A stretch of 64,000 nt of DNA, from contig NZ_LR027848.1 of NCBI RefSeq assembly GCF_900607235.1, forward strand, positions 186,001 through 250,000. Direction: 5' to 3'. The notes under the pieces were generated by a model. It did not search any database and had not been told where the DNA came from. It saw nothing but the letters and a program-made list of their open reading frames with translations. Numbering within the stretch: the stretch's first letter is position 1; each line of letters starts with the position of its first letter. The DNA is from Olivibacter jilunii (GTDB taxonomy: Bacteria > Bacteroidota > Bacteroidia > Sphingobacteriales > Sphingobacteriaceae). Shown here one piece after another: positions 5,793 through 53,571 of the stretch. The translations under genes were made by a program, and so were the position numbers.

Positions 5793-6060
5793 GGGGTGTG
5801 GGGTATAAGGTATAGGGTGTAAGGTATAAGGGATGAGGGGCAAGGTATAAGGAGTAAGGTATGGGGGTAAGGTAAATCCCCCCTGCTCATTGCTCTATTA
5901 AGTTATTTGGCAACTCAAGCCTGACTAGTTATAAGTTCTACGTTATAGGTTGTAAGTAAGGGTCAGTGCTACTCGTAACCATCATCACATTGGCTGATCC
6001 TATATCTTACGTCTACGATCAACCATTTCCCTACTCAACTATTTCCCTACAACTACTTCA
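5793..6060. repeat. Degenerate GGTATAAGGTGTAA repeat block
   Basis: The first 85 bp are loose tandem copies of a TAAGGTATAAGG-like unit. The rest has reading-matter-like motifs such as AACCATTTCCCTACTCAACTATTTCCCTAC. No ORF or terminator with a T-run was seen. It belongs to the family of intergenic repeats discussed in the findings. Confidence 0.6.
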
Positions 6061-7056: not shown

Positions 7057-7163
7057 ATTCTATAATGACACCCTTGGCAAGTTTCTATAGTTTGCCCGGG
7101 TAAACAAGCTGCGCCAATAATTCAACGAAAGGTTCTTGATGATCATTTAATATAGACATTCTC

Positions 7164-7199
7164 AAAAAAAAGCGGTTGAATAAATTCCAACCGCTTTTT
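7164..7199 (-). terminator. Rho-independent terminator after sucB
   Basis: A 12-bp perfect stem (7167-7178 with 7188-7199) has A/T runs on both sides, so it could act in both directions. It starts 18 bp after the sucB stop and insulates the next gene on the same strand. Confidence 0.85.
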
Positions 7200-7216
7200 A
7201 AAAGATAAGCTTTTTA

Positions 7217-8776: not shown

Positions 8777-8787
8777 AATCTTTTATG

Positions 8788-11601: not shown

Positions 11602-11617
11602 TTACTTTATAATACGA

Positions 11618-11687
11618 TGTGCTGACAAAGTTATAAAATATCTGACGGAATGCACATTAAATCAAATTTAATTATAACGTCAGCACA
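11618..11687. promoter_or_regulatory. sucA promoter region with inverted repeat
   Basis: The minus strand reads TAACTTTG at 11626-11633, a -7 match about 25 bp before the sucA ATG. It overlaps the left arm of an inverted repeat: TGTGCTGAC at 11618-11626 plus GTTATAA at 11630-11636 mirror 11672-11687 exactly except for a 3-nt insertion. The overlap of repeat arm and -7 element suggests an operator for a dimeric regulator; this is inference. Confidence 0.5.
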
Positions 11688-11754
11688 AAAATTTGCTTGA
11701 TAGTTACCGCACGGTGACGCACATTTTTTCTCAACAAGTTAAGCATGGAAATGT

Positions 11755-30365: not shown

Positions 30366-30484
30366 TTTTCCTACCTTTACTTTAAGCAGGTTCTTATTCC
30401 CTGTCGAATAACATTATTTGACACGACGGTCCTCTTTTGTTGCTAAAACGGTAACAAGACACTCCTTTGTACGTCTTAATAATC

Positions 30485-30619
30485 ATGGAACACAACGAAA
30501 TCCCAAAAAAGAATAAATTCATTGTCTGGCTTAAACGGCTTGGTTTCTGGGGTTTTCTTTTCTTTTTACTGAAAGGAATTTTGTGGCTGATATTGGGCTA
30601 CTGGGTGTTTAAGCAATAG
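30485..30619 (+). CDS. 44-aa single-pass membrane peptide
   Basis: An ATG at 30485 opens a 44-codon frame: a charged N-terminus (MEHNEIPKKNKFIVWLKRLG) followed by one hydrophobic helix (FWGFLFFLLKGILWLILGYW) and a short tail. The positive-inside pattern suggests the N-terminus stays in the cytoplasm. I do not know the family. It lies between DUF6266 and the ECF sigma gene on the same strand. Confidence 0.6.
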   Translation: MEHNEIPKKNKFIVWLKRLGFWGFLFFLLKGILWLILGYWVFKQ

Positions 30620-30680
30620 TAAAGCCAGCTATTTTTTAATTTTTAGTTTTTTATGCTTACTATTGCTATGAACAAACCTA

Positions 30681-31271
30681 ATGCATATCATGATTCATTC
30701 ACACGAAGAGGAAAAAAGTCTAATTCTTCTTATCAAGGATGGGAATGAAGTTGCCTTTCGCCAAATTTATGATCGCTATCGAACAAAAATTGTCAGTTTT
30801 GCCTATCGGTTTCTAAAAAATGAAGAAGATGCAGAAGAAGTCATGCAAGAAACCTTCATTCGCTTTTGGCAAGCAAGGGATAGATTGGATCATAGCTTTA
30901 CCGCAGCACCACTTTTATTTACTATTTCCCGTCGACTTGTATTAAATGAATTGCGAAAAATTGCCCAATCGGAGAAGGCTATTGCGGAGTTATTGGAAAA
31001 ATCCGACAGACTAGATCATCTTTCGCAGGATATCATGGCTGCAAAAGAAATCGATGAAAAATCTAAAGAAGCGCTGAATCAACTTTCACCACAACAGAAA
31101 ACAATTTTCTGCCTCAGTAGGTATGAAGGACTAAGCCATGATCAAATTGCCGAACGATTACAAATCTCTCCTCATACGGTTAACAATCATTTGGTAGAAG
31201 GCCTGAAAAAAATCCGAAAACATTTGTTACGATACGGCTTAATCCATTTTTTTCTCCTTTTCTATTTTTGA
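30681..31271 (+). CDS. ECF sigma factor, FecI-like, for the SusCD locus
   Basis: The 196-aa protein has a sigma region 2 (YDRYRTKIVSFAYRFLKNEEDAEEVMQETFIRFW) and region 4 (LSPQQKTIFCLSRYEGLSHDQIAERLQISPHTVNNHL). An ATG at 30690 is an equally possible start. It is followed by a FecR anti-sigma gene and an STN-domain SusC, the standard trans-envelope signalling trio: substrate binding at the outer membrane frees this factor to transcribe the locus. Confidence 0.95.
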   Translation: MHIMIHSHEEEKSLILLIKDGNEVAFRQIYDRYRTKIVSFAYRFLKNEEDAEEVMQETFIRFWQARDRLDHSFTAAPLLFTISRRLVLNELRKIAQSEKAIAELLEKSDRLDHLSQDIMAAKEIDEKSKEALNQLSPQQKTIFCLSRYEGLSHDQIAERLQISPHTVNNHLVEGLKKIRKHLLRYGLIHFFLLFYF

Positions 31272-31363
31272 TTTAAAAAATTTTCCCGGTAGCCTAGTTA
31301 TCCTTTAGCTTTCCTGTGTATTGACTTATAAAGAGCTTTGACGAAGCTTCAAAAAGGTCACAT

Positions 31364-32359
31364 ATGGATCAAACACGCCTACGCGAACTATTGGAAAAAC
31401 TAGCGAGTGATCGCATTACGGCAGAGGAGCTGCATAGGTTAATGCAGGCTGTTCAGGACGACACCTATACAGAGGAGCTTGATCAGGCATTAAGGCGGTT
31501 TCAGGATTTACCGATCATCCCCCACTTGGATGACCAAGAACAATCCCTCAAAAGTTATCAGCAGATTACTTCCGATAAGCGATTTTTACAAGCTCGCAAA
31601 CAAAAACGCCTCTATCTGACTTGGGTTGCGGCTTCACTGGCCTTGATATTAGTCGGTGCGCTTTTATATCAAAGGCTGTCTTCTCCACGGGAACATTTAC
31701 GGAATGCATTTACCACTACCTGGACGGCCCCATTGGGCGAGCAACGACAAATTGAGTTGCCTGACGGTACCTCCGTTTGGCTAAATGCAGGTAGCCGATT
31801 AGATATTCCGCGCAACTATAACGATAACGATAGGCGCGTGGTTTTAGCCGGAGAAGCTTATTTTGATGTTCAATCCAACAAACAAAAGCCATTCACTGTG
31901 GAAACAGGTTCTCTTATCACTAAAGTATTGGGAACCGCATTCAACATTAACAGCTTCGATGCATCGCATATCGCTGTAACAGTCCGGCAAGGGAAAATAG
32001 CCGTTCAGCATCAGGCTGAAACTGTATCCTTGTTAACCGCAAATCAACAGTTGATTTATAATGTCCATACCAATCACAAGCAAGTACATGATGTAAATGC
32101 CACTGCTATGATTGCTTGGATTCATCAGCGATTGCGCTTCGATAACATAAGCATGGCAGATGCAGGAAAGGCCTTGGAAAGATGGAGTAACAAGACCTTC
32201 ATTTATCGTAATGACGCCATCCGCGGTTGTCATTTTACCGTGTCCTTCCATGAAGGAGAGAATTTGCGGGAAATGTTAAATGTCATTAGTGCACTGAACA
32301 ACTTTAAATATGAAATAAAAAATGACACCGTGTACCTCGATGGTAATGGCTGTGAATAG
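31364..32359 (+). CDS. FecR-family anti-sigma factor
   Basis: The 331-aa inner-membrane protein has a cytoplasmic N-terminus of about 82 residues that would hold the sigma factor. One transmembrane helix follows (VAASLALILVGALLY), then a periplasmic FecR domain (about 110-205: LPDGTSVWLNAGSRLDIP, VVLAGEAYFDVQ, GTAFNINSF) and a C-terminal DUF4974-type domain (RLRFDNISMADAGKALERW). The latter would receive the signal from the STN domain of the SusC encoded next. Confidence 0.94.
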   Translation: MDQTRLRELLEKLASDRITAEELHRLMQAVQDDTYTEELDQALRRFQDLPIIPHLDDQEQSLKSYQQITSDKRFLQARKQKRLYLTWVAASLALILVGALLYQRLSSPREHLRNAFTTTWTAPLGEQRQIELPDGTSVWLNAGSRLDIPRNYNDNDRRVVLAGEAYFDVQSNKQKPFTVETGSLITKVLGTAFNINSFDASHIAVTVRQGKIAVQHQAETVSLLTANQQLIYNVHTNHKQVHDVNATAMIAWIHQRLRFDNISMADAGKALERWSNKTFIYRNDAIRGCHFTVSFHEGENLREMLNVISALNNFKYEIKNDTVYLDGNGCE

Positions 32360-32420
32360 CGTTCCGCTTAAACCCTAAAAAAAAATGATGAACAGACGAA
32401 CATATCCTCCCTAAAAAGGC

Positions 32421-32483
32421 AGTCACATTGGCGGCAACCAATGTGACTACACATGCAAATAAGGGATTCTTGCGGCAATCCCT
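32421..32483 (+). promoter_or_regulatory. Two hairpins in the susC leader
   Basis: The first hairpin has perfect 11-bp arms (32421-32431 with 32438-32448) around CGGCAA. The second has 7-bp arms AGGGATT (32462-32468) and AATCCCT (32477-32483). Both present GCGGCAA at or next to the loop. Neither is followed by a T-run, so they are not ordinary terminators. Confidence 0.6.
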
Positions 32484-32532
32484 CAGTATTAAACCCAATC
32501 TTAACTAGAGATAAGCTTAATTATGCAAAATT

Positions 32533-35500
32533 ATGAATTTTAAACCAACCTATCTCATTTTTATTATGAGAACAGCCAGTCTTATAGCCTTTTTGATACT
32601 TTTTTCTTTTGGCCTGTTGCTAGCTGAAAAAACCAAAGGCCAATCCATTTATAAGGACTACATTTCCTTTTCTCATCAAGGCTCGCTGGAAAGCGCCCTT
32701 TTAAAGATCGAGTCGCTCAGCAACTATCGTTTCGCCTATAAAGCCAAAGAGGTAAAAAACTACCAAACGATATCGATATCACCCGCCAAACGTTCAGTTG
32801 CCAATGTTCTGGATAGGTTATTAAAAGGCACCTCTTTATCATATCAATTGCAAGGCGATTATATCCTGCTGAAAGAGAAGAAGGAAGGTCTGCCAAAGTC
32901 CATTAGTGATCAGCAGGATTTTCCTGTTAGCGGAAAAGTGCTTGATGAGGCAAAACAGCCCTTAATTGGCGTATCCATTAAAGTAAAAGGCACCAATGTA
33001 GCCAGTCGTACCGACGATCAAGGCCACTTTATGGTCAACGCCACTCCTCAATCCATTCTGTCTATTAGCTACTTAGGCTACGAATCCCAAGAAGTGGCAG
33101 TTGGAAATGGGCAAGACTTACAGATTGTACTTAAATCAATAGAGGCCGCTTTGGACGAAGTGGTGGTAGTTGGCTATGGAACACAACGTAAACGCGATTT
33201 AACCGGTGCCGTTGGGCAAGTGAGCGGCACGGACCTCCGTAATATGCCAATTCGAAATGCGACAGAGGCCCTACAAGGTCAAACGGCAGGTGTACAAATC
33301 ACTTCTACCGGCGGAAGCCCCGGCACACCTCCTGCTGTTCGAATTCGTGGAATAGGTACGGTAAACGATAACAATCCACTCTATGTGGTAGATGGACTTC
33401 CTCAGAATGACATCGGTTGGTTAAATCCCAATGATATTGTGTCCATTGAAGTCTTAAAAGATGCGTCGGCTACCGCCATATACGGTTCAAGGGCAGCCAA
33501 TGGGGTCGTTATGGTTACCACGGCGAAGGGGAACGCTGATGGTGACAAGCTAAACAGCCAAATATCACTGGATAGTTATATCGGCATCCAAAATCCGATA
33601 AAAACTTATGAGATGATGAACGCTTCGGAGTTTATGGACTACAAGAATCTAGCAAATATCAATGCAGGTTTAGATCCCTATTTTTCGGAACAAAACAAGG
33701 CAGAGGTGTTACAATTTCTGCGTGCCAACACAGGAAGTGAAGCGGGTACCAATTGGTGGCAAGCGATCAATAATAAGAATGCCTTAGTGCAAAATCATGA
33801 TATCGCCATTTCCGGTGGTGTTAAAGATTTAGCCTATCGGACCAGCTTGAGTTATATGGATCAAGAAGGGATTATCAATGGATCGGACTATGATCGATTA
33901 TCTTGGCGGACTAATTTCAACCATAATTTACGCAGCTGGCTAAAACTATCGGGGAATATTGGACTCATTAATGAAGGTAGAGGCAATGTGCTTGAAAACA
34001 GCCCAGGTTTCAATACCGCTTTTATCGCTTTCGTAGCCGATCCGATCTCACCCGTGTATCGGACTAATTTAGTAGACGTTCCCGACTTTTTACGATCGGG
34101 ATTGTTCCTTGATCGCATTGATCAAAACAATCCATGGTCGTTTTACAGTCCCATTTTAATGACTAACAAGGAGAATCCGGTAGCCCAGACCGAGATCTAC
34201 AAAAACAATCGATGGAAGGGAACGGCTATTAAGGGAGGTGGATCAATTGACATACAGCCCTTAAGCTGGTTAAAACTGAGAAGTAACTTTGGCGTGGATT
34301 TAGCCAGAGGGACCTCGGATTATTTTTCACCGAAATATTATTTAGATGGCGATCAATTCAATGTGGACGCCACGGTAAGTAAATCCAATTCAAAGACGGA
34401 TTACTATGTGTGGGAGAACACAGCCACATTTGATAAAGAATTCGCCGATCACCACGTAACGTTCTTGGTGGGTACCTCGGCAGAACAATGGAAAAGCGAA
34501 TCCTCCAGCGCCTCGAAACAAGGGTTAGTATCCAATGATCCCAGTCAGTGGATCATTGATGCCGGCACCATTAATCCGCAGGCATCCGGTACCAAATGGG
34601 AGATGGCACTTAATTCTTACTTCAGTCGGCTTTTCTACGCTTATAAGGACCGCTATATGCTTACGGCAAATTTCCGCTACGATGGTTCCTCCAACTTTGG
34701 CGAGGATAAAAAATGGGGAGCTTTTCCTTCACTTTCCGCTGGATGGAATTTTGCTGAAGAAGACTTTATTAAGCAATGGTCGTGGCTCAATTTAGGGAAG
34801 CTTCGGGTAAGTTGGGGAAAGATAGGTAACCAAAACATCAGTCGAGGTGCTTATCTAACCACCTTTTCGGGCAATATGGGCTATTATCTATTCGGTCCAC
34901 GCAATCCACAGTTAATCGGTGGCAGTAATTACATCGGAAATGCGGGGATAAAATGGGAGCAGACTGAGCAGCTGGATATTGGCTTAGATTTAGCCTTCTT
35001 GAACAACAAGCTGAACCTAACAATAGATGCCTATCGCAAAACCACGGATGGGATGTTACTGAATGTTCCTTTGCCGGCTTACCTCGGCTTTCCGAATAGT
35101 CCCTGGTCCAACGCCGGTGGCGTCCGTAATAGCGGATTGGAATTCGATCTTTCGTACCGTAATAAAATCGGAGATTTTGGTTATTCCATTGCTGCCAATG
35201 CATCAACCTTTAAAAACAAGGTCTTGAGTTTAGGTGGGGGTGAGCCTATTACCGGTGGTGGTTGGATCAGCTACACAACTACCCTGACCGAAGAAGGCAT
35301 GCCGATCGGTTATTTCTACGGCTTCAGGACAAATGGCATTTTCCAATCGCAACAAGAAGCCGATGATTATATTCAAGAAGGCGCCCGTCCAGGAGATTTG
35401 CGTTTTGTAGATGTCAACGGTGACGGGACCATCAACAATGCCGATCGCACGAATTTGGGTGATCCCTTTCCTGATCTGACCTACGGACTCCGTTTAGGAG

Positions 35501-35964
35501 CAGATTATAAGCACTTCGACTTTCAGCTGTTAATGCAAGGTACCTTAGGCAATAAAATCATGAACATTGCTAAGATCGACATGAAGTCGGGAGTAGGCTG
35601 GTACAATGCGCCGAAAGAGTTGTTAACCGAGGCCTGGTCACCAAGTAATCCAAGTCACACGCAGTTCGCGATCAACGCTTCCAATCAGAACAATTTGCAA
35701 ATATCCGATTGGTTAGTGGAAAATGGGTCATACCTACGGATAAAGAGTGTGCAATTAGGGTATACGCTGCCGGATGCTTGGCTAGCAAAGGCCAAAATTC
35801 AACGTATTCGCGTGTGGACAGGAGCGTACAACCTCCTCACCTTCACTTCCTATTCAGGTCTCGACCCTGAGATTGGCAGCGGTTCCCCCTTAAGTATGGG
35901 AGTAGATCAAGGTTATTACCCACAGGCAAGATCATTTATGTTTGGTATCAATGCAAACTTTTAG
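32533..35964 (+). CDS. SusC/RagA TonB-dependent transporter with STN domain
   Basis: The 1143-aa outer-membrane transporter has a signal peptide (LIAFLILFSFGLLLA; the Met at 32566 is an alternative start). An STN signalling domain (about 40-115) is followed by a carboxypeptidase-like barrel extension (VSGKVLDEAKQPLIGVSIKVKG), the TonB-box-like EVVVVGYGTQ, a plug (LQGQTAGVQITSTGGSPG, VRIRGIGTVNDNNPLYVVDG) and a 22-strand barrel. It imports an unknown, probably glycosidic, ligand with the SusD encoded 3 bp downstream. The STN domain ties it to the FecR/ECF pair. Confidence 0.96.
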   Translation: MNFKPTYLIFIMRTASLIAFLILFSFGLLLAEKTKGQSIYKDYISFSHQGSLESALLKIESLSNYRFAYKAKEVKNYQTISISPAKRSVANVLDRLLKGTSLSYQLQGDYILLKEKKEGLPKSISDQQDFPVSGKVLDEAKQPLIGVSIKVKGTNVASRTDDQGHFMVNATPQSILSISYLGYESQEVAVGNGQDLQIVLKSIEAALDEVVVVGYGTQRKRDLTGAVGQVSGTDLRNMPIRNATEALQGQTAGVQITSTGGSPGTPPAVRIRGIGTVNDNNPLYVVDGLPQNDIGWLNPNDIVSIEVLKDASATAIYGSRAANGVVMVTTAKGNADGDKLNSQISLDSYIGIQNPIKTYEMMNASEFMDYKNLANINAGLDPYFSEQNKAEVLQFLRANTGSEAGTNWWQAINNKNALVQNHDIAISGGVKDLAYRTSLSYMDQEGIINGSDYDRLSWRTNFNHNLRSWLKLSGNIGLINEGRGNVLENSPGFNTAFIAFVADPISPVYRTNLVDVPDFLRSGLFLDRIDQNNPWSFYSPILMTNKENPVAQTEIYKNNRWKGTAIKGGGSIDIQPLSWLKLRSNFGVDLARGTSDYFSPKYYLDGDQFNVDATVSKSNSKTDYYVWENTATFDKEFADHHVTFLVGTSAEQWKSESSSASKQGLVSNDPSQWIIDAGTINPQASGTKWEMALNSYFSRLFYAYKDRYMLTANFRYDGSSNFGEDKKWGAFPSLSAGWNFAEEDFIKQWSWLNLGKLRVSWGKIGNQNISRGAYLTTFSGNMGYYLFGPRNPQLIGGSNYIGNAGIKWEQTEQLDIGLDLAFLNNKLNLTIDAYRKTTDGMLLNVPLPAYLGFPNSPWSNAGGVRNSGLEFDLSYRNKIGDFGYSIAANASTFKNKVLSLGGGEPITGGGWISYTTTLTEEGMPIGYFYGFRTNGIFQSQQEADDYIQEGARPGDLRFVDVNGDGTINNADRTNLGDPFPDLTYGLRLGADYKHFDFQLLMQGTLGNKIMNIAKIDMKSGVGWYNAPKELLTEAWSPSNPSHTQFAINASNQNNLQISDWLVENGSYLRIKSVQLGYTLPDAWLAKAKIQRIRVWTGAYNLLTFTSYSGLDPEIGSGSPLSMGVDQGYYPQARSFMFGINANF

Positions 35965-35967
35965 ACA

Positions 35968-37632
35968 ATGAAAAGAACGATAACGTATATAGTCATAACG
36001 GCTTTCGGCCTTATCGCCAGCTGTAAGCGTGACTTTTTGGAAAGAGACCCTTACGGCGTACTGGACGAAACAGATTATTTTAAGACCGACGGTGCCGGCT
36101 TAAAGTTGGTGACGGGCTGTTACCAACCAATGCAAGACGGATGGGGTTACACCGTTAACAAAGTAGCGATTGGCGATGAAAGTGTCGATAATGCCGATGC
36201 GGGAGGTTCCGATCCCGGCGATCGGCCGCAAACAACGGAAGTAGGGCGCGGTCGACCTCTTTCTTCCAATCCCCTATTATTTGAAACGTGGAGTAATCGA
36301 TATCGTGGTATTGGCAGATGTAATATCGCCCTTGATGCGCTGAAACGAGAAAGAAGTAACTTAGTGGAAAACGGAGCACCCCTTCCAAGTGAAGCACTTG
36401 CCCGTTATTTTGCCGAAATAAAGTTTTTGCGCGCTTGGTATTATTTCGATTTAATTACTGTATTCAAGGAAGTTCCCCTCTTAGTTGCTGTTGAAGACCC
36501 TTCTACACGAAAGGGGAAGGCCAGCATCGAAGAGCTCCGCAACCAGTTGTACATCGATTTAGACGAGGCTATTGCCGAGCCCAATTTTCCACGATCGTCC
36601 GAATTACCCGACAATGAAACCGGACGAGCCACCAAAGATGCAGCTTATACGCTTAAGGCACGAGCTGCACTTTTTTTTGCCGGATTAATGGAACAGGGCA
36701 AAATGGAGGGAGATGCATTAGGTGAATATCTCATCGCAAAAGAAATGGCGGGAGAGGTCGTTAACAACGGACAGCTCCAATTGCTACCCGATTTTCAGGA
36801 CTTATTTAGAGGTGATTATCAAGTCGGCCCCTTCTCAAAGGAATGCATTTTCGGTGTGCTGCGAAAATTCGATCCAGCTTTTGGCTTAGCGGGCGACCCC
36901 TTTGCTATTATGAATGTAGGCAGAAATAATGTAGGCGGCTGGGGAGGAAATACCCCAACGCGCGATCTGGCAGCGGCATATGATCCGGCTGATCCACGCA
37001 AAATGTTTACCATTATCAGTCATAACGACATTTTCAAAACTTCCAGCGGAGGAGAGGAAATACACAACTATCGCGGTTATTTTAACGACTATAATTTGCA
37101 ACAGAGTCGTAAAGCCTTTGTACCACAAGCCTATCGGCAACAAAACGACTTGCAACGTAGCAATTGGCAGCCGTATTGGATCCGCTATTCCGAGGTATTG
37201 CTTATCTATGCAGAAGCCATTATACGAACAGGTGGCAATCACGCAGAAGCATTGAACTACCTGAACGAAGTACGTCACCGTGCCTACGTAACGACCTCCA
37301 AAGTTGATGAACCCGCTATTTATCGCTTGTTTGCAACCGGTCTCAAAGCCATCGATGAGGCTACTTTTGCAAGCCGTTACGCCATAAAGACCTCTGATGA
37401 TATCTTGCAAGCCATAAAGAAGGAGCGTCGATTCGAATTAGCCCTCGAGGGATTCCGACTATACGATCTAATACGTTGGGGTGAATACGCGAACACTATG
37501 AAAGCCTTCCACCAAAAATACGGCTTTGCCGATAAAGGACGTGATGCCAGTGAAAACAGCTGGCCTTTCCCTATACCTCAAATTGAAATTGATCGCTCCA
37601 ATGGAGTATTAGTACAAAACAGCAATTACTAA
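35968..37632 (+). CDS. SusD/RagB surface lipoprotein
   Basis: The 554-aa lipoprotein (LIASC, Cys19) has the SusD N-terminal region (DFLERDPYGVLDETDYFKTD, FLRAWYYFDLITVFKEVPL) and the C-terminal RagB/SusD part (IRYSEVLLIYAEAIIRTGG, EALNYLNEVRHRA, ERRFELALEGFRLYDLIRWGE). It caps the SusC channel and binds ligand at the cell surface. The downstream Gfo/Idh/MocA gene starts 1 bp after its stop, so the enzymes are in the same transcript. Confidence 0.95.
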   Translation: MKRTITYIVITAFGLIASCKRDFLERDPYGVLDETDYFKTDGAGLKLVTGCYQPMQDGWGYTVNKVAIGDESVDNADAGGSDPGDRPQTTEVGRGRPLSSNPLLFETWSNRYRGIGRCNIALDALKRERSNLVENGAPLPSEALARYFAEIKFLRAWYYFDLITVFKEVPLLVAVEDPSTRKGKASIEELRNQLYIDLDEAIAEPNFPRSSELPDNETGRATKDAAYTLKARAALFFAGLMEQGKMEGDALGEYLIAKEMAGEVVNNGQLQLLPDFQDLFRGDYQVGPFSKECIFGVLRKFDPAFGLAGDPFAIMNVGRNNVGGWGGNTPTRDLAAAYDPADPRKMFTIISHNDIFKTSSGGEEIHNYRGYFNDYNLQQSRKAFVPQAYRQQNDLQRSNWQPYWIRYSEVLLIYAEAIIRTGGNHAEALNYLNEVRHRAYVTTSKVDEPAIYRLFATGLKAIDEATFASRYAIKTSDDILQAIKKERRFELALEGFRLYDLIRWGEYANTMKAFHQKYGFADKGRDASENSWPFPIPQIEIDRSNGVLVQNSNY

Positions 37633-37633
37633 C

Positions 37634-39136
37634 ATGGATTTAACACGAAGAAAATTTATAAAAGAAAGCACCGCCTTGGCGGGATTCACCATTGTTTCCA
37701 GTCATGTCTTGGGTAAAACTTTGGGATACGTGGCGCCTAGCGACAAGCTGAATATAGCCGGCATAGGTGTTGGCGGCATGGGTCGCCGCAATTTAGCTAA
37801 CATGAACACTGAAAATATTGTCGCCCTTTGCGACGTAGACTGGAAATATGCACAAAAGACTTTTCAGGATTACCCGAAGGCAAAACAATATAAAGATTGG
37901 CGGAAACTATTTGATGAAATGGGAAATTCTATTGATGCCGTTATGGTAGCAACTCCCGACCACAATCATGCCGTCATTACTGCCCATGCTATTACTTTGG
38001 GAAAACACTGTTACACGCAAAAGCCGCTTAGCCATTCTGTATATGAATCGCGTCTCTTAACCAATCTAGCCTCTAAGTATAGAGTAGCCACACAGATGGG
38101 TAACCAAGGCAACTCTTTTGACTGGTGCCGACAGGTTGCCGAATGGATTCAATCCGATATTATCGGAGAAGTGGAAGAAGTACACTGTTGGACCAATCGC
38201 CCGATTTGGCCACAAGGATTGATGCAACCCGGCGATGCCATGCCTGTGCCAGATACCCTTTCCTGGGATCTTTTCTTAGGCCCCGCCAGCAAACGTCCGT
38301 ACCACAGTGTTTATACGCCCTGGAACTGGAGAGGTTGGTGGGATTTCGGTACCGGCGCATTAGGCGATATGGCCTGCCATATTATGGATCCCATTTATTG
38401 GGCTTTAGATTTAAAGTACCCCATTAAAGTTAATGGCAGTTCAACGCTCAGTAATTTGTATTCACCACCTCATGCACAAATGGTGCAGTATACTTTTCCG
38501 GAGCGACCGAAAAAAAGAAAAGTAAAAATGCCGGAAGTAAAGGTTCATTGGTATGACGGGGGATTGATGCCCGAAAGACCGGTGGAACTCAGTCCCGGCA
38601 TGATGTTAGGCGACGAGAATGGTGGTATTCTCTTCATTGGTAAAAAAGGAAAAATCATGACCGGATGTTATGGCATGAACCCAACCCTTTTACCAGTGAG
38701 CGAAATGGAACATTTTGAGCAGCCGACGCCTTGGATTCCGCGGATTAAAGGTGGAAATGGAGATATTTGGAGTACCAATGCCCACGAGCAGGAATGGATT
38801 CGCGCAGCCAAGGAATCTCCGGAAAATCGCACGGAGGCCAGTTCGCATTTTGGATTCTCCGGACCATTTAATGAGATGGTGGTGATGGGTGTATTAGCTG
38901 TTCGACTACAGGGCCTACACCGCGACCTGCTGTGGGATGGTGAAAATATGACCTTTACCAATATTGGAGATCAGGATAAAATCAACATCGTTTCGGTGGA
39001 CGAGTTTAAAGTAGTTGATGGTGATCCCCGATTTGATCGTCGTTTTACGGAGTTCGGAGCTAAATCCATTGCAAACGAATGGATAAAGCATACTTACCAT
39101 AACGGATTCCAATTGCCCGAAATGCCGATCGACTAA
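37634..39136 (+). CDS. Exported Gfo/Idh/MocA family oxidoreductase
   Basis: The 500-aa NAD(P)-dependent oxidoreductase starts with a Tat-type signal (LTRRKFIKESTALAGFTIV). The Rossmann motif is GIGVGGMG (43-50), and the TQKPL segment has the family's conserved Lys130. The protein is longer than standard members (about 350 aa), like other Tat-exported Bacteroidota forms. Family members oxidise or reduce sugar hydroxyls, including C3 of glycosides; in GH109 the same fold cleaves via a 3-keto intermediate. Export of a nucleotide-dependent enzyme suggests a tightly bound cofactor. Confidence 0.92.
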   Translation: MDLTRRKFIKESTALAGFTIVSSHVLGKTLGYVAPSDKLNIAGIGVGGMGRRNLANMNTENIVALCDVDWKYAQKTFQDYPKAKQYKDWRKLFDEMGNSIDAVMVATPDHNHAVITAHAITLGKHCYTQKPLSHSVYESRLLTNLASKYRVATQMGNQGNSFDWCRQVAEWIQSDIIGEVEEVHCWTNRPIWPQGLMQPGDAMPVPDTLSWDLFLGPASKRPYHSVYTPWNWRGWWDFGTGALGDMACHIMDPIYWALDLKYPIKVNGSSTLSNLYSPPHAQMVQYTFPERPKKRKVKMPEVKVHWYDGGLMPERPVELSPGMMLGDENGGILFIGKKGKIMTGCYGMNPTLLPVSEMEHFEQPTPWIPRIKGGNGDIWSTNAHEQEWIRAAKESPENRTEASSHFGFSGPFNEMVVMGVLAVRLQGLHRDLLWDGENMTFTNIGDQDKINIVSVDEFKVVDGDPRFDRRFTEFGAKSIANEWIKHTYHNGFQLPEMPID

Positions 39137-39217
39137 TATGGTTTAATAAGTAATCGCCGGTGTCGTTGATCTGTTATGCGATCGACGGTACCGGTCTTAA
39201 ATATAAGAGAATTCATC

Positions 39218-40087
39218 ATGAAAAGATTAGAAAGGAACCTGATAACCGTATTTTTTACCGCCTGCTTAATTCTATACAATTTTCATTACGCGGCAGCACA
39301 ATCCCCAGAGGTAAAGACCGATTGGAAACTTGCCGTCCAGTCGTATACCTTCCATAAGTTTACACTGATGGAAACCTTAGATAAAGTACAAACTTTGGGA
39401 CTGCACTACCTTGAAGTTTACCCGGGGCATCCCTTGGGCGCAGGGTTTGGCGAATTAAACTTTTCGCCGAGTTTATCAAAAGAAAATCAAGAGAAATTAA
39501 ATCAAGAGGCTGCAAAACGAGGTATAAGGATCATTGCCATGGGAGTGGTTGTAACGGAAGCTGCCGAATGGGAAGCTTATTTTTCCTTTGCCGCAGCCAT
39601 GCATATGGAGTACATTAGTGCCGAACCGGCCTTGGCCGATTGGGACTTGGTCGAAAAGCTTGTCAAAAAGTATAATATAAAACTGGCTGTCCATAACCAT
39701 CCCAAGCCTTCATTGTATTGGAGTCCTAACGATTTATTGAAGGTGATCGGTCACCGCGATGCGAGGATCGGCTCTTGCGCAGATGTGGGCCATTGGAGAC
39801 GAGAAGGGCTGAATCCGCTGGAATGCCTTAGGAAGTTAAAGGGGCGTATACATGCACTCCATTTCAAAGACATCACCTCTGGTAAGCGTTCAGCGCACGA
39901 GGAAATGCCCGATACAATCTGGGGTACCGGCATACTCGATGTAAAAGCTATGTTAGCTGAACTAAAACAACAAAATTTCAAAGGAACCTTGGCCATCGAA
40001 TATGAAAACAATTGGGAAAATTCGGTACCTGATATACAAAAAAATTTAACTTATTATTCCCAGGCTTTAAAGGAAATTAATCCATAA
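39218..40087 (+). CDS. Secreted xylose-isomerase-like TIM barrel (AP_endonuc_2)
   Basis: I chose the ATG at 39218 over the upstream frame start at 39176 because it gives a clean signal peptide (NLITVFFTACLILYNFHYAAA). The mature protein is a sugar isomerase/epimerase-type TIM barrel: SYTFHKFTLMETLDKVQTLG, LEVYPGH, AVHNHPKP, DVGHWRREG, ALHFKD and LAIEYENNW carry the metal-ligand Glu/His/Asp positions of the fold. This family includes 3-keto-sugar isomerases/epimerases and C-glycoside-cleaving beta-eliminases. Here it follows the Gfo/Idh/MocA gene and precedes a GMC oxidoreductase. Confidence 0.88.
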   Translation: MKRLERNLITVFFTACLILYNFHYAAAQSPEVKTDWKLAVQSYTFHKFTLMETLDKVQTLGLHYLEVYPGHPLGAGFGELNFSPSLSKENQEKLNQEAAKRGIRIIAMGVVVTEAAEWEAYFSFAAAMHMEYISAEPALADWDLVEKLVKKYNIKLAVHNHPKPSLYWSPNDLLKVIGHRDARIGSCADVGHWRREGLNPLECLRKLKGRIHALHFKDITSGKRSAHEEMPDTIWGTGILDVKAMLAELKQQNFKGTLAIEYENNWENSVPDIQKNLTYYSQALKEINP

Positions 40088-40157
40088 AGGCACAAGCTAA
40101 GCATCTGTAACAGGAAATAACTAAATTGCTGCAGGTATCATTATAAACAAAAAGAGC

Positions 40158-41870
40158 ATGAATATATCGGGGAAGGCGAAAGCGCAGCACACGTATGATG
40201 TCATTGTAATCGGTTCGGGCATCAGCGGTGGTTGGGCGGCCAAAGAATTTTGTGAGAAAGGGTATAAAACGTTGGTATTAGAACGGGGTCGAATGGTCAA
40301 ACACCTGGAAGATTATCCTACGGCGATGCAGGATCCTTGGCAATTCACACATCGAGGAGAGCTACCGGAAGCGGTGACGACTAACAATCCCATTGTGTCC
40401 CGTTGCTATGCTTTTGACGAAACAACACAACACTTTTTTGTAAAAGATCAGGAACACCCATATGTGCAGGAGAAGCCGTTCGACTGGATAAGGGGCTATC
40501 AAGTTGGCGGCAAGTCCCTACTTTGGGCACGACAAACGCAGCGTTGGAGTGATTATGAATTTGAAGCCCCGGCACGGGACGGTTTTGCGATAGACTGGCC
40601 CATTCGCTATAAAGACCTGGCACCATGGTACAGTTATGTAGAAAAGTTTGTTGGAATCAGCGGGACCAAAGATCAGATTCCGAACCTTCCCGATAGCGAA
40701 GTGCTTCCTGCTTTCGAGATGAATGCTCTAGAGAAGCACCTTAAAGAACGAATAAAAGCCTCTTATCCCAATCGCCATGTCATCATTGGTCGTTGTGCCC
40801 ACCTCACGGCACCACAAAAAATTCATGTAGCCCAAGGAAGAGGCCAATGTATGGCTCGGCACCTCTGCCATCGGGGATGCCCATTCGGTGCTTACTTTAG
40901 CAGTAATTCATCCACACTACCCTGGGCCGATGCTACAGGTAATCTGACCTTATTGACCAATCAAGTGGTGGAATCTATTCTGTACGATGAACAAAAGGGC
41001 AAAGCAATCGGTGTGCGTACTGTGGATAGCAAAACAAAACTTGTAAAGGAGTTTTATGCACGCATTATTTTTGTTAACGCATCCGCTCTTAACACCAATC
41101 TTATCCTATTAAATTCGAAGTCAGCCCGCTTCCCCCAAGGGTTGGGCAATGACAACGGCTTACTTGGCCATTACATTGCCTTTCATAATTATCGTGGCAA
41201 TATATTGGCCAGCTTTGATGGGCTTCGCGATCAATATTATTACGGACGACGCCCCACCAGCATTTTTATGCCTTCCTTTCGCAATGTATTCCGGCAGGAG
41301 ACCGACTTTCTACGAGGTTATATGATCGCCTTCAGCGCTAGTAGAGCAGGATGGAGCCAACAGCTGGAAGGAATTGGAAGTGATTATAAAGATCAACTCA
41401 CAGAGGCCGGTCCGTGGCAGGTTTTCATGATGATGCAAGGAGAAACCATCCCTCGATATGAAAATCATGTCCGCCTAAGTAACCATGAAAAAGATCCGTG
41501 GGGCATTCCGCAATTGATTACATCCGTTGACTATACGGATAATGACGTAAAACTTATGCACGATTTTCTGGAACAGGGCTCTGCTATGCTCGAGCAATCC
41601 GGTTGTAAGGTCGCAGCAAGGATTGACCGTAAAGATGCACCGGGCTTGGATATACATGAAATGGGCGGGGCACGCATGGGAAAGGACCCCAAAACATCGT
41701 TGTTGAATAAGTGGAATCAACTTCATCAATGTAAAAATGTATTTGTTACCGATGGTGCCTGTATGACCTCAACCGGTAATCAAAATCCATCCCTGACCTA
41801 TATGGCACTTACAGCAAGAGCAGTAGATTATGCCGCTACGGCACTTCAAAAGAACGATGGAACCGTTTGA
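40158..41870 (+). CDS. GMC-family FAD oxidoreductase (glycoside 3-dehydrogenase-like)
   Basis: The 570-aa flavoprotein has FAD-binding GSGISGG near residue 19, the GYQVGGKSLLWARQTQRW segment, and an active-site pair at His500 (HEMGGARMG) and Asn543 (GNQNPSLTYMALTARA). Cys231, Cys237 and Cys241 recall the iron-sulfur-binding cysteines of bacterial FAD glucose dehydrogenases. It most resembles glucoside 3-dehydrogenase catalytic subunits. No signal peptide is visible, and no Tat-carrying small subunit is encoded nearby, although neighbouring enzymes are exported. Substrate is inferred, not shown. Confidence 0.9.
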   Translation: MNISGKAKAQHTYDVIVIGSGISGGWAAKEFCEKGYKTLVLERGRMVKHLEDYPTAMQDPWQFTHRGELPEAVTTNNPIVSRCYAFDETTQHFFVKDQEHPYVQEKPFDWIRGYQVGGKSLLWARQTQRWSDYEFEAPARDGFAIDWPIRYKDLAPWYSYVEKFVGISGTKDQIPNLPDSEVLPAFEMNALEKHLKERIKASYPNRHVIIGRCAHLTAPQKIHVAQGRGQCMARHLCHRGCPFGAYFSSNSSTLPWADATGNLTLLTNQVVESILYDEQKGKAIGVRTVDSKTKLVKEFYARIIFVNASALNTNLILLNSKSARFPQGLGNDNGLLGHYIAFHNYRGNILASFDGLRDQYYYGRRPTSIFMPSFRNVFRQETDFLRGYMIAFSASRAGWSQQLEGIGSDYKDQLTEAGPWQVFMMMQGETIPRYENHVRLSNHEKDPWGIPQLITSVDYTDNDVKLMHDFLEQGSAMLEQSGCKVAARIDRKDAPGLDIHEMGGARMGKDPKTSLLNKWNQLHQCKNVFVTDGACMTSTGNQNPSLTYMALTARAVDYAATALQKNDGTV

Positions 41871-41888
41871 CATCCATAAATTCCAAAT

Positions 41889-43598
41889 ATGAAAAGACGA
41901 GATTTTATAACAGGCATCACTATAGGCAGCACCTTTTTAGCCAATATCCCTTACCTATCAAATGCATCAGCTCATGCGCATGAAAAGCACAAACAGAAAG
42001 AGCTTAAGTCCGACATTGTCATCGTTGGCGGAGGCTTAGGCGGATGCGCGGCAGCTTTAGCCGCGCTGCGCCATGGATTGTGCGTTACACTGAGTGAAGA
42101 AACCGATTGGTTGGGAGGTCAGCTCAGTCAACAAGGCGTACCTCCCGACGAGCACCAATGGATTGAAACCCATGGTGCACCCGCCTCATACCGCGCTTTT
42201 CGTGATCGCATACGTACGTTTTATAAACGCAATTATCCATTAACGACCGAAGCAAAACAGCGCACCCATTTAAATCCCGGAGATGGTTCCGTTTCACGCC
42301 TATGCCATGAGCCTAGAGTGGCTGTTGCCGTCCTATTGGAGATGTTAATGCCTTATTTAAGCTCCGGTAAATTAACCTTACTCACGGATTATCGAGTTAT
42401 AAAAGCCGCTATTCATCAAGATCAGGTCACCGCAGTACTTGTGAAACATCGGCATGAGGATCATGAACTTACTTTAAATGGTCATTATTTTATCGATGCT
42501 ACCGAGCTCGGTGATCTGCTCCCATTAACCGGTACGGAATACGTTACAGGTACCGAATCCAAAAAGGAAACGAACGAGCTGCATGCCCCGGAAGTCGGCA
42601 AGCCTGAAAACCAACAGGCTTTTACTATGTGTTTGGCTATGGACTATCAACAAGGAGAAAACCACGTGATTGATAAGCCGGAACAATATGATTTTTGGCG
42701 TGATTTCATACCGAAGATGGTCCCCTCCTGGTCGGGTAAATTGTTGGATCTCTCCTATTCCAATCCGCGTACATTGCAGGCCACTACACTCGGCTTCAAT
42801 CCAACCGGTGAAGCGACCAATAAAGCGTTAAACCTTTGGAATTATCGAAAAATCATCAACAGACACAATTTTTTACCCGGGGCCTTTGGCGGTGACCTCA
42901 GTATAATGAATTGGCCACAGAACGATTATTTTTTGGGTAACTTGATCGATGTACCGCCCGCCGTATATGCAAAGCACCTGAAAGCAGCAAAGCAGTTAAG
43001 TTTATCCCTATTTTACTGGTTACAGACGGCCGCTCCAAGGTCCGATGGTGGTGAAGGGTGGCCCGGCCTTCGTTTACGGGGTGATGTATTAGGGACCGCT
43101 GACGGGTTAGCTAAGTACCCGTATATACGCGAATCGAGACGAATAAAAGCAACCTTTACCATTCTCGAAGAACATGTGGGAAAGGAAAACAGAGGTTTGG
43201 TTGCCGGACAATCCGCAGCTAGTAAAGCCGCTGATTTTTTTGACAGCGTGGGTATCGGGTACTATCATATCGATCTCCACCCGAGCAGTGGTGGCGATAA
43301 TTATATCGATTTTAGTTCGCTCCCCTTTCAAATTCCTTTAGGTGCATTCCTTCCCATACGCATGAAAAACCTGCTCGCCGCCAATAAAAATATTGGAACC
43401 ACTCATATTACAAACGGCTGTTATCGTTTGCATCCCGTGGAATGGAGTATCGGAGAAGCCGTTGGTTTGTTAAGTGCCTATGTTATTCGAAAGAAATTAA
43501 CACCCCATCAGGTTAGAAATGATCAGCAGCTATTGAACGATTTTCAGCGTTTCGTTCGAAAGGAAGGGATAGAGACCAATTGGCCGAACGCTATATGA
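41889..43598 (+). CDS. Exported FAD-dependent oxidoreductase (FAD_oxidored type)
   Basis: The 569-aa protein starts with a twin-arginine-like signal (MKRRDFITGITIGSTFLAN) and an FAD-binding GGGLGGCAAALAAL motif at about residue 47. DWLGGQLSQQGVP follows, which is typical of the FAD_oxidored (PF12831-like) family. The C-terminal NKNIGTTHITNGCYRLHPVEW segment completes the FAD site. The reaction is unknown; family members sit in many polysaccharide/glycoside loci of Bacteroidota. It ends the operon and is 18 bp after the GMC gene. Confidence 0.88.
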   Translation: MKRRDFITGITIGSTFLANIPYLSNASAHAHEKHKQKELKSDIVIVGGGLGGCAAALAALRHGLCVTLSEETDWLGGQLSQQGVPPDEHQWIETHGAPASYRAFRDRIRTFYKRNYPLTTEAKQRTHLNPGDGSVSRLCHEPRVAVAVLLEMLMPYLSSGKLTLLTDYRVIKAAIHQDQVTAVLVKHRHEDHELTLNGHYFIDATELGDLLPLTGTEYVTGTESKKETNELHAPEVGKPENQQAFTMCLAMDYQQGENHVIDKPEQYDFWRDFIPKMVPSWSGKLLDLSYSNPRTLQATTLGFNPTGEATNKALNLWNYRKIINRHNFLPGAFGGDLSIMNWPQNDYFLGNLIDVPPAVYAKHLKAAKQLSLSLFYWLQTAAPRSDGGEGWPGLRLRGDVLGTADGLAKYPYIRESRRIKATFTILEEHVGKENRGLVAGQSAASKAADFFDSVGIGYYHIDLHPSSGGDNYIDFSSLPFQIPLGAFLPIRMKNLLAANKNIGTTHITNGCYRLHPVEWSIGEAVGLLSAYVIRKKLTPHQVRNDQQLLNDFQRFVRKEGIETNWPNAI

Positions 43599-43623
43599 GA
43601 GCCCAAAGTCCAAGAACATTATT

Positions 43624-44397
43624 TTATTTAGTATCCATATACAGGGCCTCGACTTCTAGATCGCTAAGTCGTCTGTTATAAAACCTAAGGTCATCCATTT
43701 GTCCCTTGAAATATGTTAAATAATTTCCTGCGTGGCTGCCATAATTCCATTCTGCCCCTACCGTTTCCTGATTAACATCGTCTTTCTCGGCCAGACTCCA
43801 ATTGGGCAAATATAATGACGATAGCTCTTTTTCATTATCGACATAGACTTCAACCAGTTCTTCGGCATCGGACCAACGCACAACAATGTGATGCCAAGAA
43901 TTAGGACGGAGAACAGAATCTGTGTATAATGGCTCCGGCCACCCTTCGCCGGTGGGCACTCCCCATCTAAAAAGCGAAAGAAGCGATATTTTTCCTTCTT
44001 CAATTACAAGTCTATATCGGTATAAGGCAAGTGTATGAACACCGCCAACAAAAAGCGGTAATTGCTTATTTAAATGAACATCTGGACTCTGTAACCAAAA
44101 AGAAAGAGTACCGATTGAATCAGCTAAGCCAGCATCCAGATCCAAATAATTTCCATCTAGACAAAGTGCGGAATTAGGGTTTCCAAAACGGTCAGTTGTA
44201 TATTTTGCCCCATGTGTATCATAATTTAAGCCTGATATCGTTTCAATGCTATTTCCGGAAAATGGGAAGTTATATCGCAAGCCATTTCGCAAATCAACGT
44301 CTTCAACTGGATCTAACCTCGCCTCTTTATTACAGGAAAACAAAATGATTAAAGTTATTAAACTGACAAAATGGTGAAGGGTAAATCGTGTTTTCAT
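43624..44397 (-). CDS. LamG-domain lipoprotein
   Basis: The 257-aa lipoprotein (ILFSC, Cys22) has a concanavalin/LamG-type jelly roll at about 45-255. It includes LCLDGNYLDLDAGLADSIGTLSFWLQ, NSWHHIVVRWSDAEELVEVYVDNE and the ending GQMDDLRFYNRRLSDLEVEALY. Such domains bind glycans or protein surfaces. It is convergent with the oxidoreductase operon (25-bp gap) and has a -7 element of its own, so it could be a surface glycan-binding protein of the locus or unrelated. Confidence 0.85.
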   Translation of the reverse strand: MKTRFTLHHFVSLITLIILFSCNKEARLDPVEDVDLRNGLRYNFPFSGNSIETISGLNYDTHGAKYTTDRFGNPNSALCLDGNYLDLDAGLADSIGTLSFWLQSPDVHLNKQLPLFVGGVHTLALYRYRLVIEEGKISLLSLFRWGVPTGEGWPEPLYTDSVLRPNSWHHIVVRWSDAEELVEVYVDNEKELSSLYLPNWSLAEKDDVNQETVGAEWNYGSHAGNYLTYFKGQMDDLRFYNRRLSDLEVEALYMDTK

Positions 44398-44418
44398 AAG
44401 GTTTTTTTATTCCGAAAC

Positions 44419-44426
44419 CAAAATTA
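44419..44426 (-). promoter_or_regulatory. -7 element of the LamG lipoprotein gene
   Basis: The minus strand reads TAATTTTG, 22 bp before the ATG. Confidence 0.4.
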
Positions 44427-44912
44427 TCTAAAAGACAGAGATTAAAAATCTCAATTCCGGCATCTGTAAAAAAAATGTATATTTTAACTTTCCAATCTGC
44501 ACATTATTGCACTATAGCTTGATTTATTCTTTCCTCCATTCCTCACTCTCATCACAAAAAATAAAGCGGATATCTCACGACAACCGCTTTACACTAACTA
44601 AACTAAACAACTATATAAACAATCTATATAGATACTTTATGAACAAAAAAACCTAACGTTTATAACCTTAACTCGGAATAAAAGAATCCGGCTTCTACAA
44701 TGTGTTATGAAACCGGAAACTTTAACCAACCAAACCAAACATGAACCATGTTATTTTTCAAGCCTACAAACTTCTTTTATTTAGAACGATTATCGATAGT
44801 GCAAGTATAAAGTTTATTTAGAACAAGTACAAATAATAAAGTTATTTTCATGATATCCCCTTCATTATCAATATCATTCATTCTACTACATAGGTATGCG
44901 GTAAATTTATTT

Positions 44913-52390: not shown

Positions 52391-53380
52391 TTAATATTCC
52401 GGCAATAGCGGTGCCGTTCCCATAATATCATCAATTTTCGCCAATAACTCAGGTGTTAATTTTGGAAGGATTTCCAAGGCCTTTAGATTTTCTTGAAGCT
52501 GGCTATCCTTTGTTGCACCAAGAATCGCGGTTGTCACATTTGAATTCGTAAGCGTCCAGGCAATGGAAAGAGTTGCCAAACTGGCCCCTAATTCATCGGC
52601 TACCTTTTTCAGGTTCTTCACAGCTCCGAGCTTTTGATCCGTATAGGACTTATCTTTCAGCCATTCATAGCCTTCCAGTGCCAAACGCGACCCCTCCGGA
52701 ATGCCTTCATTGTACTTCCCGGTTAATAGCCCCGAAGCCAAGGGGCTCCAGATGGTAGTTCCCATGCCAAGATTACGGAAGATAGGCAAATAATCAACCT
52801 CTATTTTTTGTCGATGGAATAAGTTGTACTCAGGCTGCTCAACGGCCGGCGGTTCCAAGTTCAATTTGGCAGCAACGGCATAGGCCTCTACAATTTCCGC
52901 AGCGCTCCATTCACTGGTACCCCAATAGAGAACCTTCCCCTGCTGAATTAATGTGTTCATAGTACGAACCACTTCTTCCATCGGTGTATTTTTATCAGGA
53001 CGATGGCAATAATAGAGATCAAGGTACTCAACCTGTAAACGTTGCAAGGCTTCGTGACAAGCTTCCACGATATGCTTGCGGCTTAATCCATACTGATTTG
53101 GCTTTTTATCGGGTCCTTTCCAGCCGAAGAAGACTTTACTGGAGACAACATAGGAAGAGCGCTCCCAGCTTTTTGCTTTTAACACCCTTCCCATCATTCT
53201 TTCTGATTCACCTCGTGAGTAAACTTCCGCATTATCAAAAAAATTAACCCCGGCGTCATAAGCGATACCCATTAGACGGTCACTTAAGGTATCATCCACT
53301 TGCCGCGCAAAGGTTACCCAAGAACCAAAGGACAGTGCACTTAACTGTAGCCCCGTACGGCCCATTCTTCTATATTCCAT
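52391..53380 (-). CDS. Aldo/keto reductase, KCNAB-like
   Basis: The 329-aa NADPH-dependent reductase is a TIM barrel with the catalytic tetrad Asp49, Tyr54 (DNAEVY), Lys82 (VSSKVF) and His126 (YYCHRPD). The C-terminal TAILGATKDSQLQENLKALE binds NADPH. It resembles the voltage-gated K+ channel beta-subunit group. Substrate unknown. It lies downstream of a SusCD pair on the same strand but a terminator separates them, so it is probably independent. Confidence 0.93.
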   Translation of the reverse strand: MEYRRMGRTGLQLSALSFGSWVTFARQVDDTLSDRLMGIAYDAGVNFFDNAEVYSRGESERMMGRVLKAKSWERSSYVVSSKVFFGWKGPDKKPNQYGLSRKHIVEACHEALQRLQVEYLDLYYCHRPDKNTPMEEVVRTMNTLIQQGKVLYWGTSEWSAAEIVEAYAVAAKLNLEPPAVEQPEYNLFHRQKIEVDYLPIFRNLGMGTTIWSPLASGLLTGKYNEGIPEGSRLALEGYEWLKDKSYTDQKLGAVKNLKKVADELGASLATLSIAWTLTNSNVTTAILGATKDSQLQENLKALEILPKLTPELLAKIDDIMGTAPLLPEY

Positions 53381-53505
53381 ACTGTTATTGTTAACTGATT
53401 TCTGTAAAACTAATGAATGGCCGTAAAAGTTTTGAAAAAAACGGAAATGATGACAGGAAGCTGATTCGTTAGTAGAGAAATAGTTGAATGGGGAACTAAG
53501 CGTTT

Positions 53506-53541
53506 AAAAAAAATCACCCAGCCGAATAGTGACTGGGTGAT
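53506..53541 (-). terminator. Terminator of the second SusCD operon
   Basis: ATCACCCAG (53513-53521) pairs exactly with CTGGGTGAT (53533-53541), followed on the minus strand by eight T. It lies 30 bp after the SusD stop. Confidence 0.88.
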
Positions 53542-53571
53542 CCATTTTCCGAGGTCTCTTTTCGTTAAAAA

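Follow-up and report, generated by a model that had tools for sequence, protein, structure and literature searches.

A candidate SusCD operon for redox-based opening of glycosides in Olivibacter jilunii

Background

Can an uptake locus in which no hydrolase is recognisable still open a glycoside? The question is raised by a locus of Olivibacter jilunii that lies at positions 30681-44397 of the window, by which we mean the whole stretch of 64,000 nucleotides that was analysed (positions 186001-250000 of contig C1, NZ_LR027848.1, in a genome of 6.7 Mb). It joins a SusCD transporter to a Gfo/Idh/MocA oxidoreductase (hereafter Gfo), a TIM barrel, a GMC flavoprotein and a second oxidoreductase dependent on flavin adenine dinucleotide (FAD). 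The initial annotation, made from the sequence, read it as a complete locus for uptake, 3-oxidation and elimination or reduction of a plant O- or C-glycoside. The annotation of polysaccharide utilization loci seeks carbohydrate-active enzymes (CAZymes), and SusCD loci that carry only oxidoreductases and a TIM barrel would pass as incomplete. Such loci may open whole classes of glycosides.

We conclude that this is a real, ordered oxidative glycoside locus with conserved relatives and with a chemistry of known kind. It is, in our assessment, probably an inducible uptake operon that opens a glycoside by redox chemistry rather than by hydrolysis, a reading that we hold with moderate confidence. 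As far as literature searches show, the combination of SusCD, Gfo, TIM barrel, iron-sulphur (Fe-S) GMC and PF12831 flavoenzyme is new.

Results and discussion

Gene content and order

Eight genes on the plus strand lie head to tail at positions 30681-43598 (open reading frame list). An extracytoplasmic function (ECF) sigma factor (30681-31271; PF04542, PF08281) and a FecR-type anti-sigma factor (31364-32359; PF04773, PF16344) precede an STN-SusC TonB-linked outer membrane transporter (32533-35964; PF07660 STN and PF07715; 919 bits to TIGR04056, cut-off 368) and a SusD surface lipoprotein (35968-37632; PF07980, PF14322), and the four enzyme genes follow. The intergenic gaps are 92 bp between ECF and FecR, 173 bp between FecR and SusC, 3 bp between SusC and SusD, 1 bp between SusD and Gfo, 39 bp between Gfo and the TIM barrel, 70 bp between the TIM barrel and GMC, and 18 bp between GMC and the second FAD enzyme. 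A second ATG of the TIM barrel gene, at 39218, is its likely start, with a Sec-like leader (judged by eye); it widens the gap to Gfo to 81 bp, and the gaps from SusC onwards then range from 1 to 81 bp. Both the order and the spacing agree with the initial annotation, whose gene names match those returned by Pfam (ten proteins) and NCBIfam (seven proteins).

The same searches detected no glycoside hydrolase, polysaccharide lyase, esterase or DUF1080 domain, so that the earlier statement that no hydrolase, lyase or esterase is recognisable in the operon stands. The genome holds 14 DUF1080 matches, all above the cut-off and none inside the window. The term 'hydrolase-free' needs one qualification, as NAD-dependent GH109 glycosidases also use the Gfo/Idh/MocA fold and the Gfo of the window weakly matches a GH109-type structure in the PDB (6t2b, E 9.9e-4). 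The SusD protein matched general SusD relatives among solved structures (best E 2.3e-27), which gave no hint of the substrate.

A predicted glycoside 3-dehydrogenase of the BT_2158 family

The Gfo protein (37634-39136, plus strand) matches NF058561, the model of the BT_2158_fam glycoside 3-dehydrogenases, over 487 of 487 positions and with 844 bits (cut-off 750). The model has 29 matches in the genome, and only this one exceeds the cut-off. The protein aligns with the solved structures 8tdf (E 2.2e-172) and 8tdh (E 1.4e-168), and in these alignments it keeps the KP motif, as QKP with K130, and the motif GDMACH from residue 244; we take the Lys of xKP and the D-x-x-x-H residues to be catalytic. 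In a comparison of 29 Gfo relatives (the proteins of loci L136 and L226 stand outside this set), all have GDMACH and an RR-x-F/L leader, and the xKP motif reads QKP in 26 and EKP in 2, with no match to the pattern in the remaining one. The leader of the window protein, TRRKFI, resembles those of the twin-arginine translocation (Tat) pathway, and the genome encodes TatC. On sequence grounds, this exported enzyme would oxidise glycosides at C3.

BT2158 of Bacteroides thetaiotaomicron is described as a periplasmic glycoside 3-dehydrogenase, whose mutant does not grow on trehalose, leucrose or palatinose (PMC11300592). A review (PMC12385236) and a mouse study (PMC10734470) report from Liou et al. 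that its operon encodes two oxidoreductases along with a sugar phosphate isomerase and a glycosyl hydrolase, and that isothiocyanate formation needs BT2158 together with BT2156 or BT2157. This requirement parallels a Gfo and TIM barrel pair without DUF1080. The window operon resembles BT2156-BT2160, a 3-keto pathway for glucosinolates and disaccharides, in having a BT_2158-family Gfo with a Tat-type leader, a sugar-phosphate-isomerase-type protein and a scheme in which oxidation comes before cleavage. It differs from it in lacking DUF1080 and a second Gfo, and in having its own SusCD, GMC and PF12831 genes.

The TIM barrel carries the ligand positions of an eliminase

The secreted PF01261 TIM barrel (39176-40087, plus strand) is a candidate 3-keto-glycoside beta-eliminase or 3-keto-glycal hydratase. 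Its closest solved relative is 3p6l of Parabacteroides distasonis, titled sugar phosphate isomerase/epimerase (339 bits), to which the predicted model fits with a VIA Z of 39.9 and 1.4 A over 261 residues. A far weaker match, to 8bvk, spans 99 residues (phmmer; 28 bits, E 1.1e-5). We identify 8bvk with the O-glycoside eliminase AtOGE because it is 259 residues long and because it carries H, H, D and H at residues 132, 134, 163 and 189, in agreement with the published numbering, where H132, D163 and H189 bind the metal, H134 is catalytic and E233 is a fourth, weak ligand (PMC10628242). H173, H175, D203 and H229 of the window protein face the first four of these positions. E233 falls outside the alignment, and E275 is the candidate for it by position. 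All ten aligned TIM proteins, the BT2156-like protein of locus L243 among them, have the HNH motif and the later His, and at least 90% of the ten keep the Asp and the Glu. Elimination by this TIM barrel would fit these residues. The metal ligands of eliminases, whose absence the initial annotation had named as an argument against its proposal, are present; their presence counts for little, because epimerases and hydratases share them.

C-glycosides had been put on a par with O-glycosides as substrates, a view that we set aside. In C-glycoside eliminases (CGEs) the position of AtOGE H132 is a Glu (PMC10628242), whereas the window protein has a His, and no CGE beta subunit occurs among the operon proteins (Pfam, NCBIfam). 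Both observations suggest that O- or S-glycosides fit better. The puerarin dgp/CGE operons share with the window the succession of 3-oxidation by a Gfo and action of a TIM-barrel eliminase, and differ from it in these same two respects. The Agrobacterium tumefaciens operon GlycDH-AtOGE-AtHYD-Gfo likewise keeps oxidoreductases and TIM barrels together, with an eliminase whose H, H, D and H align with ours at the low overall similarity given above. It has two TIM barrels where the window has one, whereas the window has SusCD uptake and exported enzymes.

Oxidation followed by dehydration in an inositol- or cyclitol-type pathway (IolG/IolE-like) could merely resemble glycoside 3-oxidation. NCBIfam does report IolG for Gfo (57 bits) and the myo-inosose dehydratase IolE for the TIM barrel (39.8 bits), and IolE structures reach Z 24-25 against the TIM model. 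Yet these scores are far under the respective cut-offs of 355 and 290, while NF058561 is above its own, and on these scores we set the inositol pathway aside as very improbable.

A proposed route of glycoside opening

In the route that we favour, SusCD would carry the glycoside into the periplasm, and the STN domain together with FecR would release the ECF sigma factor and switch the operon on. The Tat-exported Gfo may then oxidise C3 of the sugar with bound nicotinamide adenine dinucleotide (NAD). The metal-dependent TIM barrel would act next, with His175 taking the C2 proton and the aglycone being expelled by beta-elimination, which would leave a 2-hydroxy-3-keto-glycal. Once water is added, the same Gfo could reduce the 3-keto sugar, which would yield the free sugar and regain the NAD; we propose this redox-neutral cycle because of the account of BT2158 in PMC11300592. 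The Fe-S GMC flavoprotein would be a second sugar oxidant that feeds its electrons into respiration, and an oxidised product might be the substrate of the PF12831 flavoenzyme.

The GMC flavoprotein resembles Fe-S dehydrogenases

The best PDB matches of the GMC protein (40158-41870, plus strand; PF05199, PF00732) are two large subunits, that of fructose dehydrogenase (E 2.5e-27) and that of FAD glucose dehydrogenase (E 3.1e-23), compared with E 1.7e-6 at best for pyranose oxidases. Its C231, C237 and C241 and its H500/N543 align with fructose dehydrogenase; in the relatives, the aligned cysteines presumably bind a 3Fe-4S cluster and the His/Asn pair is presumably catalytic. Because of the three 3Fe-4S-type cysteines, GMC is probably an electron-transfer dehydrogenase, by resemblance, and not an O2-dependent 3-oxidase. 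The initial annotation had invoked GMC 3-oxidases; on the cysteines and the closest relatives, we set aside an O2-dependent 3-oxidase of the G3Ox/pyranose oxidase type.

The three-subunit Fe-S dehydrogenases (FDH, FAD-GDH and LacABC) share these cysteines and the His/Asn pair, and differ from the window in that no PF13618 small subunit or cytochrome adjoins its GMC. LacA is, we assume, of the same Fe-S GMC type as the window protein. The lactose 3-dehydrogenase LacABC, linked to DUF1080 in Caulobacter and Pedobacter (PMC9007349), oxidises glycosides in the periplasm and comes closest to a precedent for a GMC-type dehydrogenase in such a pathway; the window operon has neither its cytochrome and small-subunit genes nor DUF1080. 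Relatives of the window GMC are usually orphans as well: of 86 that are at least 65% identical, 10 have a small subunit nearby (by a limited hidden Markov model, seeded with three sequences).

Seven related GMCs, that of the window included, are encoded in the genome. The closest paralogue (70%; locus L175, positions 5792-11207, on contig C7) stands at the end of a row of genes that also encodes a Gfo and two proteins of 257 and 500 aa, the longer of which resembles a GSDH-cytochrome c protein annotated in locus L127. Another GMC of the genome (48%; locus L178, positions 8934-12682, on contig C2) is accompanied by a Gfo with 478 bits to BT_2158_fam, below the cut-off, and directly followed by a PF13618 small subunit.

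The PF12831 flavoenzyme and its contexts

The last enzyme of the operon (41889-43598, plus strand; PF12831, 314 bits) begins with the Tat-type leader KRRDFI and has no close solved relative, with three PDB matches at E 0.007-0.009. An AlphaFold2 model built from 24 sequences reached pLDDT 81 and pTM 0.86. Fold searches recovered the FAD-binding domain common to many families (VIA Z at most 17.4 over 176-297 of 569 residues among the 50 structures listed; Foldseek TM-score by query at most 0.35), and because the matches concern this domain only, they give no reading of the activity. A literature search found no paper that mentions PF12831 together with FAD-dependent oxidoreductases. The locus places the family in a pathway context that can be tested.

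Relatives of the enzyme occur in 37 of 301 genomes of the family, our own included, and lie in varied sugar loci. We fetched 34 regions for the 39 matches in other genomes; some of these are truncated where a contig stops, in L155 within the FAD gene. The relative directly follows SusD in four loci (L129, L136, L138 and L144), in one of which, L136, it also adjoins DUF1080 and a 76% identical Gfo. It accompanies GHL10 or NAGPA proteins in L137 and L147, and in L127 it follows an AGE-type epimerase and a GluP-type transporter (annotated as such in L127; others were assigned by size).

GMC and PF12831 could together give 3-keto-glycoside catabolism a respiratory branch that would be new, in which PF12831 would process an oxidised sugar or the 3-keto-glycal. 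We put this forward tentatively and consider it unlikely. If it were true, an Fe-S GMC that lacks the customary small subunit would oxidise sugar for energy, the cell would draw electrons while cutting glycosides, and a function would be suggested for the PF12831 relatives in those 37 genomes.

History of the locus in the genus

The genus is represented here by five genomes, that of the window and four sisters (G063, G052, G015 and G037). Two sisters, G063 (locus L122) and G052 (locus L123), have GMC (82% and 80% identity) and the FAD enzyme (73% and 71%) at the corresponding site, with the same genes upstream, and neither has SusC, SusD, Gfo or TIM barrel of the window type at the site (blastn, BLAST). 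The segment absent from both extends from ECF to the TIM barrel, at positions 30614-40145. In G015 and G037 no FAD match was found at E 1e-100. Directly upstream of GMC in G052 lies a decayed 3' end of a TIM barrel gene with an in-frame stop (L123 in reverse complement, positions 9047-9190; 57% identity over 42 residues, 48.5 bits, E 4e-9, against 25.4 bits for the best of 500 shuffled proteins). This remnant implies that the TIM-GMC order is older than the split and that the upstream genes were lost in G052, and we accordingly dropped the idea that the segment was inserted in the window genome. In G063, where the best TIM match has 18.9 bits and no remnant was found, gene loss would account for the same absence. 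G052, which has lost the window-type SusCD, carries a distant SusC-SusD pair (33% and 26%) directly after FAD.

The survival of GMC-FAD alone in two sisters suggests that these two genes have a use of their own. They might form a separate downstream unit, with the pathway proper consisting of SusCD, Gfo and the TIM barrel, and the contexts outside the genus point the same way, since the FAD gene directly follows GMC in 2 of the 34 fetched regions, both from the sister genomes. On the other side stand the short gaps of 70 and 18 bp, the TIM remnant directly upstream of GMC in G052, and the presence of a GMC, of a different clade, after three of nine SusCD-Gfo loci in another genus. We consider a separate unit rather unlikely; it overlaps the other readings, so that their probabilities do not add up. 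A scan of positions 40000-44500 for promoters and terminators gave no excess over shuffled sequences (9 vs 8.8; 4 vs 4.9).

Related loci and the source of the cleaving activity

We searched for relatives of Gfo (in the family, at E 1e-150 or better) and read the gene context of all 22 places found in other genomes of the family and of all nine further places in the class. Genes outside the window were labelled by BLAST at 1e-8 against the ten window proteins and nine DUF1080 and PF13618 references from the same genome, and a missing label is not to be read as absence. Gfo relatives occur in 19 of the 301 family genomes, our own included. At nine of the 22 family places, the gene next to SusC (67-72%), SusD (70-77%) and Gfo (78-85%) encodes a second Gfo, about 326 aa long, whose sequence was read in six cases and which was recognised by size and place in three. 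A GMC follows in three of these nine (L200, L202 and L207). The survey of GMC genes listed 80 of 584 confirmed stretches. In a tree of GMC proteins (FastTree only), these three belong to another supported group (99-100) than the GMC of the window, which clusters with those of two sisters (support 99). Because of this difference in clade, GMC probably joined the SusCD-Gfo cassette twice. DUF1080 lies beside Gfo at eight of the 22 places, and five have neither DUF1080 nor a window-type SusCD. In the class, DUF1080 is beside Gfo or one gene away from it in eight of nine places; one of the loci, L226, reads DUF1080-Gfo-TIM (Gfo 79%, TIM 52%), followed by its own ECF-FecR-SusC (48%)-SusD (40%).

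Taken with SusCD, the BT_2158-family Gfo and the metal-ligand TIM barrel, the Gfo-TIM pair of L226 speaks for the core of the original proposal: uptake, 3-oxidation and a metal-dependent TIM barrel. The proposal is not supported as regards the GMC 3-oxidase, C-glycosides as a candidate on a par with O-glycosides, a plant origin of the glycoside, or the claim of completeness, as the operon contains no separate hydratase or lyase and no GMC small subunit. The nine similar loci, defined by SusCD and Gfo and read in their immediate gene context, make the idea testable.

A number of observations weigh against the opening of glycosides by the operon's own redox enzymes. A window-type TIM barrel was labelled beside none of the 22 family Gfo genes and one of the nine in the class, the usual neighbour being DUF1080 or a second Gfo, and close TIM relatives are rare (one match in other genomes at E 1e-95 in 395 class genomes). 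The window TIM barrel is distant from the BT2156-like one of L243 (E 3e-5, a one-sequence comparison), a Gfo-Gfo-DUF1080-TIM locus that we used as a stand-in for the B. thetaiotaomicron operon. Its fold and metal site are common to epimerases, IolE and the hydratase AtHYD, and among the 50 structures listed for the TIM model the structures of these proteins are level with the eliminases DgpB and CGD (Z 23.6-26), while AtOGE (8bvk) is not in that list. GMC has no visible leader and no adjacent PF13618 small subunit or cytochrome among the operon proteins (Pfam), all three PF13618 genes that the genome contains have another GMC as their neighbour, and the GMC-FAD pair persists without the other locus genes in two sisters. 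In the literature, BT2157 and BT2158 alone, expressed in Bacteroides fragilis, are reported as insufficient (PMC12385236), mutants deleted for BT2157 or BT2158 grew without defect on sugars of the raffinose family, where transposon data had pointed to one (PMC11501099), and in a Pedobacter strain no lactose phenotype was seen for any of ten DUF1080 genes (PMC9007349).

In a rival account, the TIM barrel would be an AtHYD-like hydratase and the bond would be cut by a DUF1080 lyase or hydrolase encoded outside the window, where all 14 DUF1080 matches of the genome lie. AtHYD (8ro4) is as close to the TIM model as the eliminases are (Z 24.4), and the frequent proximity of DUF1080 to Gfo in family and class fits the same account. 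What speaks against it is that the nine SusCD-Gfo loci have a second Gfo next, with no DUF1080 labelled there, which indicates that some loci can do without a DUF1080 gene nearby. The window protein moreover keeps the H-x-H pair on comparison with AtOGE, the one protein with which it was compared there. We regard cleavage by a distant DUF1080 protein as a serious but less probable account, and continue to favour elimination by the TIM barrel of the operon.

The second Gfo proteins that follow the BT_2158-type Gfo in the nine loci (L197-L202, L204, L207 and L208) share an IGLDT-type motif in the six that were read. The two scanned, from L197 and L202, matched no NCBIfam model above its cut-off.

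Neighbouring genes

Convergent to the FAD gene lies a gene for a LamG/concanavalin-like protein of uncertain role (43624-44397, minus strand; PF13385), which the initial annotation left unmentioned. In G063 (L122), two LamG-type homologues occupy the same place after FAD. On the other side of the operon, a short conserved stretch with an apparent frame of about 43 codons (30483-30613) separates it from a DUF6266 gene, which had no match in a PHROGs search; the stretch is found in the same place in both sister genomes. Further downstream in the window, at positions 52391-58721 on the minus strand, there is another SusC-SusD pair, followed by an aldo/keto reductase.

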